Part shown: one piece after another, positions 45,688 through 49,460 of the stretch
How the letters are laid out: every line of letters begins with the position of its first letter
How positions within the stretch are numbered: the first letter of the stretch is position 1
Source of the DNA: an uncultured SAR86 cluster bacterium
Lineage (GTDB): Bacteria; Pseudomonadota; Gammaproteobacteria; Magnimaribacterales; AG-339-G14
Length of the DNA: 64,000 nt
Direction: 5' to 3'
Assembly: GCA_902523885.1 (NCBI GenBank)
Contig: CABZAV010000001.1
Span: 186,001 to 250,000, forward strand
The notes under the pieces: generated by a model
The model's database searches: none
What the model was told of the DNA's origin: nothing
Seen by the model: the letters and a program-made list of their open reading frames with translations, nothing else
Translations under genes and position numbers: made by a program

Positions 45688-47616
45688 ATGGCTAAAATTA
45701 TAGGTATTGATTTAGGAACCACGAATTCATGTGTTTCTATTATGGAAGGTGACAATGCTAAAGTCATTGAAAATGCTGAAGGTGAGAGAACTACTCCCTC
45801 TGTTGTAGCGTATACAGATGGCGAAACACTAGTTGGTTCAAGCGCTAAAAGACAATCTGTTACAAATCCAGAAAATACGTTATACGCCATTAAAAGACTT
45901 ATTGGCAGGAAGTTTTCTGATGAAGTTGTAACAAAGGATAAAGAAATGACTCCTTTTGAAATTATCAAGGCTGACAATGGCGATGCATGGGTTAAAGCTA
46001 ACGGTGAGAGTTTAGCTCCTCAACAGGTTTCTGCTCAAATTTTAACGAAAATGAAAAAATCTGCTGAAGACTACTTAGGTCATGAGGTAAAAGAAGCGGT
46101 AGTAACTGTTCCAGCTTACTTTAATGATTCCCAAAGACAGGCTACTAAAGATGCAGGAAAAATAGCCGGTTTAGAAGTTAAAAGAATAATAAATGAGCCC
46201 ACAGCAGCAGCATTAGCCTTTGGTTTAGATAAAAAAACTGGTGATCAAAAAATTGCTGTTTTCGATTTGGGTGGAGGAACATTTGATATTTCTATCATAG
46301 AACTAGCTGAAATAGACGGTGAAAAACAATTTGAAGTTTTGTCTACTAATGGCGACACGTTCCTTGGTGGAGAAGATTTTGATCTTGCGTTGATAGATCA
46401 TCTCGTTGATGAATTTAAAAAAGAGCAAAATTTTGATTTGAAATCGGATCCGGCCGCACTACAAAGACTTAAGGAAGCAGCGGAAAAAGCCAAGATTGAA
46501 CTTTCTTCTAATCAACAAACTGAAATCAACCTTCCATATATTACCGCTGACTCATCTGGTCCTAAACACCTTCTAATTAAATTAACTAGATCTAAGCTTG
46601 AGGCGCTTGTAGAGCCGTTAGTTGCTAGAAGTTTAAAGCCAGTTGAGATTGCACTAAAGGACGCAAAGCTAAAAACCTCTGATATAAATGACGTAATTTT
46701 AGTAGGAGGACAAACAAGAATGCCTATGGTCCAGGAAAAAGTTAAAGAATTTTTCGGAAAAGAGCCAAGAAAAGATATTAACCCGGATGAGGCCGTTGCT
46801 GTAGGAGCTGCCGTTCAGGGAGCTGTTCTATCCGGAGACGTAACAGATATTCTTCTTTTAGATGTTACACCTCTTACTTTAGGAATAGAAACTATGGGTG
46901 GAGTTATGACTCCTGTAATAGAAAAAAATACAACTATTCCAACCAATAAATCTCAAATTTTTTCAACTGCAGAGGATAATCAGATTGCTGTAACCGTAAA
47001 CGTTGTCCAAGGAGAGAGAAAGCAAGCAAAAGAAAATAAGCAGTTAGGTCTATTTAACTTAGATGGGATTCCAGCTGCTCCAAGAGGTATGCCTCAAATT
47101 GAGGTATCCTTTGACATAGATGCTAATGGAATTTTAAATGTTTCAGCTAAAGACAAAGCAACCGATAAAGAACAATCTATTACTATTCAAGCTTCAGGCG
47201 GTTTATCTGAAGAAGAAATAGAAAAAATGGTTACTGAAGCAGAAGCAAATGCCGAAGAAGATAAAATTTTCGAAGAAATGGTGCAGGCAAGAAATTCTGC
47301 AGATACTTTAATTCACAGCTGCAAAAAAACTTTGGAAGAATCAGCTGATAAAGTTGAAGAAAACGAAAAAACTCAAATTGAAGAAGCTATTACTTCTCTT
47401 GAAGAAGCCATGAAAGGTGAAGACAAACAAGAAATTGAGGACAAAACCAAAGCGCTAGCTGAGGCTTCATCTTCTCTAGCTCAGAGACTTTACGCAGAGC
47501 AACAACAAAACGCTTCAACTGATCAAGGAGGTCAGGAATCCGAAGCTGCTGACGACTCGGCGGTCGATGCTGATTTTGAAGAAGTCAAAGAAGAAGCCAA
47601 AGAACAAGAAAAATAG
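45688..47616 (+). CDS. dnaK: Chaperone DnaK (Hsp70)
   Basis: 642 aa, against 638 in E. coli. The ATPase domain shows [36 protein letters not shown] and [16 protein letters not shown]. The linker is around [12 protein letters not shown]. The lid is followed by a glutamine-, alanine- and acid-rich tail. A heat-shock promoter candidate precedes it. dnaJ follows after 27 nt. Confidence 0.99.
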
Positions 47617-47643: not shown

Positions 47644-48720
47644 ATGAGTAAAAGAGATTACTATGAGGTGCTAGGTGTCAACAAAAGTACGTCTAAAGAC
47701 GAACTAAAAAAAGCTTACCGTAAATTAGCTATGAAATATCATCCGGATAGAAATCCTGATGATCAAGCGGCTTCCGAAAAGTTTAAAGAACTATCAGAAG
47801 CTTACGAAATTCTTTCGGATGATCAAAAACGACAAGCTTACGACCAATTCGGACATGATGGAGTAAATCCATCTTTTTCAAATGCGCAAGGAGCAGCAGA
47901 AGGATTTAGTGACATATTTGGAGATATCTTTTCCGATATTTTTGGCGGTTCTACAAGAACAAGAAGTAGGTCTCAGAGAGGTGCTGATTTAAGTTATAGC
48001 GTTGAAGTCTCTCTTGAAGACGCCGTTAAAGGTACAAGTATTAACCTTGACATACCTTCGAGCGAGAGATGTTCAGGAACTTGGCATCAGTGCAACCACT
48101 GTAATGGCAATGGAGTAGTCAGAATGCAACAAGGTTTTTTTTCAATGCAACAGACTTGTCCTCATTGCAGAGGTGAAGGTGAAATACATGATCCTAATTG
48201 TTCCATCTGTGGCGGTGCAGGCTTTATTAAAAAAAATAAAACCCTTTCAGTAAAAATTCCAGAAGGCGTCGATACTGGAGATAGAATAAGATTATCTGGT
48301 GAAGGTGATTCCGGTAAACATGGAAATGGAGATCTTTATATTCAAGTAGATGTCCAAAGGCACAAAATCTTTGAAAGAGATGGAAAGCATTTATATTGCG
48401 AGGTTCCGATAAACTATGCTGATGCAGTCCTTGGCGGAGATATTGAAGTCCCAACGCTTGATGGCAAAGTTAAAATTAAAATTCCTGAAGGAACACAGAG
48501 CCACAAATTATTTAGATTAAATGGAAAAGGGATCAAGCCTTTAAGAGGTGGATCAAAAGGGGATATACTTGTAAGAGTATTAGTTGAGATACCCGTTAAA
48601 TTGAACAAAGAGCAAGCAGCGTTACTCAGAAAGTTTAAGGAATCTATTAGCGGTTCCGAAAATACGCCTATGAAAAATACTTGGTTAAAAAGCGCTAAAG
48701 AATTTTTAAAGGGTTTTTAA
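47644..48720 (+). CDS. dnaJ: Chaperone DnaJ with degenerate first zinc motif
   Basis: 358 aa, against 376 in E. coli. Delivers clients to DnaK. The J domain has HPD at about residues 34-36, followed by a short G/F region rich in [11 protein letters not shown]. Of the four CxxCxGxG motifs only three are intact: C150/C153, C172/C175 and C186/C189. The first is reduced to C143 in RCSGTWHQC, as if about ten residues (the second cysteine and HGSG) had been removed. Zinc site I therefore lacks one cysteine; His148 might substitute. The stop overlaps the dapB ATG by 1 nt. Confidence 0.96.
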
Positions 48721-49460
48721 TGTCAATCTCTCTTTTTATTTCAGGGGTTACAGGAAAATTAGGAAAAGTTGTTGCTGAAGAGTTAGAAAATACAGAAAGT
48801 ATTTTTTTGGCTGGGGGCCATGCCTCAGCTAGCAACAAAAATTTAGGAAAGCCTTTAAATTCGATTTTGAATATCGAATGCAAAGAAAACTTAATTTCAG
48901 ATTTTAATAATATTGATTACAAAATTGATGCAGTTTTGGATGTATCTTCAATAGACAATTTTCAACATCTCACCGAATTTTGCTTAAAAAAAGAATTACC
49001 GTTTATATTGGCTAGCACAGGTCATAGCGAAGATCAGCTATCTTCTTTAAAGAAATATAGTGAAGATTTACCAATCCTAATTGCTCCAAATTTGAGTTTA
49101 GGTGTAAATCTTCTAAAAAAATCTTTATTACCTTTAAAAAATAACGAATCTATTAGCAAAATAGAAATTACCGAAACTCATCATAAAGAAAAAAAAGATT
49201 CCCCTTCAGGAACAGCAAAGGATTTGGCTGAATTTATTGATAAAAATTTGCATTTAAAAGTTAAAACTATTGTTAAATCTATTAGAGACGAATCGTCGGT
49301 AGGTATCCATGAAGTAAAGATATCTTTAGATAATGACGAGTTAATAATTACTCATAATGCTTTTGATAGGAAAATCTTTGCAAAAGGCGCAATAAAAGCA
49401 ATTGAGTGGATTGTTGCGCAAAAGCCAGGGCTTTATTCTATGCAAGAAATATCTTTTTAA
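48720..49460 (+). CDS. dapB: 4-hydroxy-tetrahydrodipicolinate reductase
   Basis: 246 aa, against 273 in E. coli. NAD(P)H-dependent reduction in the diaminopimelate/lysine pathway, feeding peptidoglycan. The nucleotide-binding loop reads SGVTGKLGKVVAEEL. The active site has ETHHKEKKDSPSGTAKDLAE with the catalytic HH and lysine. It is coupled to dnaJ by TAATG. The carA-carB genes that follow dapB in Pseudomonas are absent; rpsB comes next. Confidence 0.95.
   Translation: MSISLFISGVTGKLGKVVAEELENTESIFLAGGHASASNKNLGKPLNSILNIECKENLISDFNNIDYKIDAVLDVSSIDNFQHLTEFCLKKELPFILASTGHSEDQLSSLKKYSEDLPILIAPNLSLGVNLLKKSLLPLKNNESISKIEITETHHKEKKDSPSGTAKDLAEFIDKNLHLKVKTIVKSIRDESSVGIHEVKISLDNDELIITHNAFDRKIFAKGAIKAIEWIVAQKPGLYSMQEISF

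Follow-up and report, generated by a model that had tools for sequence, protein, structure and literature searches.

The DnaJ encoded beside dnaK in the window (i.e., the whole stretch of 64,000 nucleotides that was analyzed, from an uncultured SAR86 cluster bacterium) contains seven cysteines in its zinc domain, and all 35 DnaJs read from four genera of its own family (family f1) possess the same seven-cysteine zinc domain with identical cysteine spacing. The seven-cysteine form is a trait fixed in family f1 as far as this family has been read and is not a defect of the genome of the window. We propose, with a probability of about 0.58, that zinc center I of the dnaK-linked DnaJ of family f1 was rebuilt once, on the stem of the family, as a Cys3His site formed by C143, H182, C186 and C189, and that zinc center II was left untouched.

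The dnaJ gene (47644..48720) is located on the forward strand, as are all other features whose positions are given here, and is an intact ORF of 358 codons encoding 358 amino acids, in which no frameshift is found, as had been stated in the original prediction. It lies between a gene that we take to be dnaK on its 5' side (45688..47616) and a presumable dapB-like gene on its 3' side (48720..49460), both names being assigned from the sequence. The HPD motif of the J domain (residues 33–35; 47740..47748) is identified by domain match and alignment, and H33, P34 and D35 are invariant in alignment A1. The J domain (PF00226) and the DnaJ C-terminal domain (PF01556) are matched with 99.7 and 168.3 bits, respectively, and the overall DnaJ model of NCBIfam, TIGR02349, is passed with 411.1 against a cut-off of 377.2. 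The zinc-domain model PF00684 is also still passed, with 39.9 bits against a cut-off of 32.7, over profile positions 4–65. In the C-terminal domain, Cys252 (48397..48399) is kept and is invariant in alignments A1 and A2. The same domain also contains His287 (48502..48504), fixed in 34/34 family DnaJs at a position occupied by Gly in 87 of 93 relatives, and Val310 (48571..48573), which is V in 34/34 family DnaJs versus a cysteine in 86 of the 93 relatives.

The zinc-domain cysteines of the window DnaJ are found at residues 143, 150, 153, 172, 175, 186 and 189. Motifs 2, 3 and 4 are complete CxxCxGxG motifs and motif 1 is reduced to the lone Cys143 (48070..48072), exactly as originally described; this single remaining cysteine of motif 1 is present in 35/35 family members and is a proposed ligand of center I. 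The stretch from C150 to C175 (48091..48168) comprises motifs 2 and 3, whose cysteines (C150, C153, C172 and C175) form the intact center II, while the first four residues of motif 4 (48199..48210) carry C186 and C189 of center I. A center I with three cysteines was likewise foreseen, and C143, C186 and C189 are all found in 35/35 family DnaJs. The first cysteine of motif 2 follows C143 at a spacing of 7 residues, compared with 17 in the aligned eight-cysteine relatives, and the linker between them, SGTWHQ (48073..48090), has six residues where those relatives have 16 between the first cysteine of motif 1 and motif 2. Thus 10 residues (30 nucleotides) are missing with the reading frame kept, in agreement with the in-frame loss of about 30 nucleotides suggested earlier. 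By its distance from an Ile-Pro anchor, C143 could be the first cysteine of the old motif 1, or it could be the second, given that a Gly at +2 in 34 of the 35 sequences resembles CxG.

The 35 family DnaJs, which share 70–99% identity with the window DnaJ, come from 34 of the 37 f1 genomes searched plus one locus (L183) from a search of the order; the other three f1 genomes (G023, G027 and G032; 70, 86 and 60% complete) gave a short J-domain match only. The search of the order, which covered 199 genomes, included at least 40 from f1 and gave a match in 35 of these, the five f1 genomes listed with no match being 59–86% complete; the 35 f1 matches were short in length and, among the matches listed, those of families f2 and f3 were long, weak matches in two f3/f2 genomes (G104 and G137) lying outside the DnaJs read. 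The original prediction would have been undermined by close relatives with a complete first motif, and none of the 35 family members read has one. The genome of the window is incomplete (15 contigs, 88.06% complete), which might favor a deletion introduced by sequencing or assembly; because the 35 DnaJs, each from its own genome and together covering four genera, agree at identities to the window as low as 70%, we reject such an error and regard it as having almost no chance of being the explanation.

Outside family f1, eight cysteines are found in 132/132 zinc-domain DnaJs read, i.e., 8/8 from f2, 8/8 from f3, twelve further ones from f2 and f3, 77/77 from proteobacteria and 27/27 from a search of the class; a few of these eight-cysteine DnaJs (L091, L095, L151, L153, L158 and L191) have an altered Gly in a motif. 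When a profile of the family zinc domain (A4) was used to search 370 genomes of the class, 355 gave a match, in which three f1 genomes scored 150.6–163.7 bits and the next score among the matches listed was 85.1; the 27 opened out of 352 non-f1 matches are those with eight cysteines counted above. In a search of 398 genomes of the phylum, the genome of the window alone was found at E <= 1e-26. Both searches address the build found in family f1 and are blind to three-cysteine forms of different build. Pairwise identities within the zinc domain average 0.754 in f1, 0.758 in f2 and 0.743 in f3, rough values as the families differ in depth, and decay of the domain in f1 is not supported by them.

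A tree of DnaJs computed without the zinc domain (66 rows, 64 of them different, with nine other gammaproteobacteria as the outgroup and the drawing midpoint-rooted) places family f1 in one clade (100/99). Family f1 groups with f2 (97/88 for the pair), whose motifs are complete, while f3 and f4 are found together and apart from f1 and f2 (100/98). As f1 is one clade beside a family with complete motifs, the most suitable reading of the deletion is a single event on the f1 stem. With its presence in every family DnaJ read, the missing cysteine looks like an old inherited redesign rather than a sequencing error.

Which residue, if any, takes the place of the lost cysteine can be approached through conservation in the family. 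His148 (48085..48087) was the fourth ligand suggested in the original prediction, and it does stand between C143 and C150 in the genome of the window, but position 148 is N in 14, Q in 8, S in 8 and H in only 5 of the 35 family DnaJs. Since the same cysteines are kept in all 35, His148 is ruled out as a general solution, and we consider it very improbable as the fourth ligand of center I. The proposed substitute is His182 (48187..48189), which is located four residues ahead of C186 of motif 4 and is H in 35/35 seven-cysteine DnaJs and in 0/132 eight-cysteine DnaJs, where the residue is I (118), V (13) or S (1). When 34 family DnaJs were compared with 93 others, 30 out of 401 columns of the alignment proved family-specific (at least 97% within the family and at most 10% outside), 10 of which correspond to the deletion. 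Within the zinc domain, no Cys or His other than H182 belongs to the family-specific columns, and H182 is absent in 93/93 of the others. It is accompanied there by other family-specific changes, i.e., R142, G145, M168, E178, E180 and D183, and having arisen together with them it might serve a different role. Because all 35 sequences descend from a single origin, the complete association of H182 with the seven-cysteine form counts as one event and not as 35; H182 has nevertheless been kept in all of them, including those that are only about 70% identical to the window DnaJ, while residue 148 drifted.

From these comparisons we suggest that the in-frame loss of 10 residues, which cost motif 1 one of its cysteines, took place on the family stem, and that the Ile/Val four residues before motif 4, which had probably been buried, would have been replaced with His182. 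Center I would then be a Cys3His site (C143, H182, C186 and C189), a smaller and putatively structural site that lacks the CxxC pair in motif 1, while center II (C150, C153, C172 and C175) would be unaltered and the DnaJ of family f1 would probably keep the functions of center II. The intact center II and the kept C252, alongside V310 in place of the cysteine common in relatives, fit a DnaJ that retains center-II functions with a compact Cys3His center I. H182 is a candidate zinc ligand of center I, inferred from its position and conservation.

The AlphaFold model of the window DnaJ, calculated with alignment A2 (42 rows, of which only 4 are the seven-cysteine form), has a mean pLDDT of 77.9 and a whole-model pTM of 0.46, with block means of pLDDT of 82–87 over residues 141–200. 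Short strands are predicted at residues 147–149 and 180–182, the second of which ends at H182. The best match of the model among solved structures is 6jzb (Z of 17.1, rmsd of 4.2 over 232 residues), and a sequence search of solved structures listed canonical DnaJs.

An alternative to the Cys3His site is that center I is without zinc, in which C143 and the cysteines of motif 4 are kept for reasons of fold or thiol chemistry and H182 packs on residue 147 of the linker. The aromatic residue at 147 (W in 30 family DnaJs and F in the other 5) is as constant as H182, and the two predicted strands may be neighbors. E. coli DnaJ without most of its zinc domain works with DnaK, with an EC50 about 3-fold higher and with loss of thiol-reductase activity, as given in the sections consulted of PMC4428491, and family f4 of the same order manages without a zinc domain (see below). 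Against these points, zinc-free cysteines would be expected to drift, and C143, C186 and C189 are kept in 35/35 family DnaJs; packing would also hardly explain a new His at a position that is Ile or Val in 131 of the 132 other DnaJs. On balance, we regard a zinc-free center I as unlikely, although a serious competitor to the Cys3His site. Much less probable is a center I whose metal is held by the three cysteines plus either water or an acidic fourth ligand, for which E178, family-specific in 34/34, and D183, nearly so in 33/34, would be available. In structural zinc sites with three cysteines, carboxylates are less usual than His as the fourth ligand, which speaks against an acidic one.

The Cys3His proposal can be placed against what is described for the two centers elsewhere. 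According to the portion of PMC4428491 that cites Linke 2003, center I of E. coli DnaJ is reported to be essential for substrate binding and center II to serve the work with DnaK. This role of center I in substrate binding speaks against the proposal, and the change in family f1 may carry a cost. Loss of parts of the zinc domain reduces substrate binding in E. coli DnaJ, but not in Ydj1 (PMC5818400, in part), and deletion of the greater part of the domain eliminates the thiol-reductase activity but, when conditions are reducing, affects DnaK-dependent refolding only modestly (passages of PMC4428491 and PMC5818400). A result from Salmonella speaks for the proposal: as far as the excerpt of PMC8262869 reports, DnaJ without all four Zn1 cysteines keeps wild-type resistance to H2O2 and keeps DksA reduced, whereas neither H2O2 resistance nor reduced DksA is kept by the Zn2 mutant and the C-terminal cysteine mutant.

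The window DnaJ resembles class A DnaJ of the E. coli type in having a J domain, a G/F region, an inserted zinc domain, a C-terminal domain and dnaK as a neighbor, and differs from it in having seven rather than eight zinc-domain cysteines, 10 residues fewer and the gained His182. Class B DnaJ, defined by the absence of a zinc domain and exemplified by CbpA and by Thermus thermophilus DnaJ, which is termed class B in the section consulted of PMC8215388, shares with family f1 the loss of zinc-domain sequence, but f1 retains three of the four motifs and zinc center II. By the eight-cysteine definition of a full zinc domain in the excerpt of PMC12799103, the window DnaJ with its seven cysteines does not belong to class A, nor does it belong to class B because three complete motifs remain. 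The same excerpt describes class B as having arisen repeatedly from class A, through loss of the zinc domain, and names the CbpA clade and Actinobacteria as bacterial class B cases. The closest published case found of a partly lost zinc domain, again in PMC12799103 as excerpted, is that of DNAJB11 and atDjA8 of the endoplasmic reticulum, in which about 30 residues and 4 cysteines remain in an oxidizing compartment; in family f1, 51 residues (C143–G193) with a new His are found in the bacterial cytoplasm, and all seven cysteines lie within residues 143–189, so that the window DnaJ is not a truncated form of the DNAJB11 type. Among the matches listed in our literature search, titles and openings of abstracts, with subscription journals thinly covered, describe no seven-cysteine or Cys3His DnaJ.

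The separate roles of the DnaJ zinc centers have so far been studied with engineered mutants, as judged from passages of PMC8262869, PMC5818400 and PMC4428491. In family f1, one center has been altered and the other kept by nature in four genera of a marine family, together with a candidate substitute ligand. If the Cys3His proposal is true, the f1 change would amount to a separation in nature of the two zinc centers, and the f1 DnaJ to a living intermediate between class A and class B.

In family f4, which belongs to the same order, the domain is missing altogether from every DnaJ read. In 7/7 f4 loci read (L052–L058), which come from 8 f4 genomes searched with one giving no match, the DnaJ beside dnaK is about 305 amino acids long and lacks the entire zinc domain. 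The two f4 loci that were opened (L054 and L058) have the same dnaK-dnaJ-dapB-rpsB order as the f1 locus, with names assigned by eye. No match to PF00684 above the cut-off was found in any of the 10 f4 genomes searched, compared with 5/5 f1, f2 and f3 genomes and 13/14 control genomes in the same search. We take the zinc-domain loss in f4 to be independent of the change in f1 and a separate event on the tree, where the f4 branch is long (0.71) and its exact placement is accordingly less sure. Families f1 and f4 provide further bacterial cases for studying the origin of class B from class A by zinc-domain loss. It is quite possible, though less likely than not, that this order, presumably SAR86 throughout, displays two independent outcomes of pressure on the DnaJ zinc domain, one in f1, where center I was converted from Cys4 to Cys3His and center II was spared, and one in f4, where the whole domain was deleted and the DksA-like protein is also without two zinc-finger cysteines.

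In 5/5 f4 genomes searched (L178–L182), the DksA-like protein has two zinc-finger cysteines instead of four, and it may be a different type of DksA and not a derived one. In families f1–f3, DksA has four cysteines in 9/9 genomes searched, five of which are f1 genomes. Zinc sparing as the cause of the f1 change finds no support in DksA, the only zinc protein surveyed.

A second zinc-domain DnaJ that might compensate was not found in the genomes searched with PF00684, including that of the window (88% complete), where the only other PF00684-like match, at 19.5 bits and below the cut-off, lies in a 936-amino-acid frame that we take to be UvrA from its size and its presence in every genome searched. 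Elsewhere in the genome of the window there is one short J-domain match (L031, G000:C2), with 45% identity over residues 5–64, which falls in an open frame of 257 amino acids and whose match row contains one TGA and one TAA; our guess is that it encodes a membrane co-chaperone of the DjlA type.
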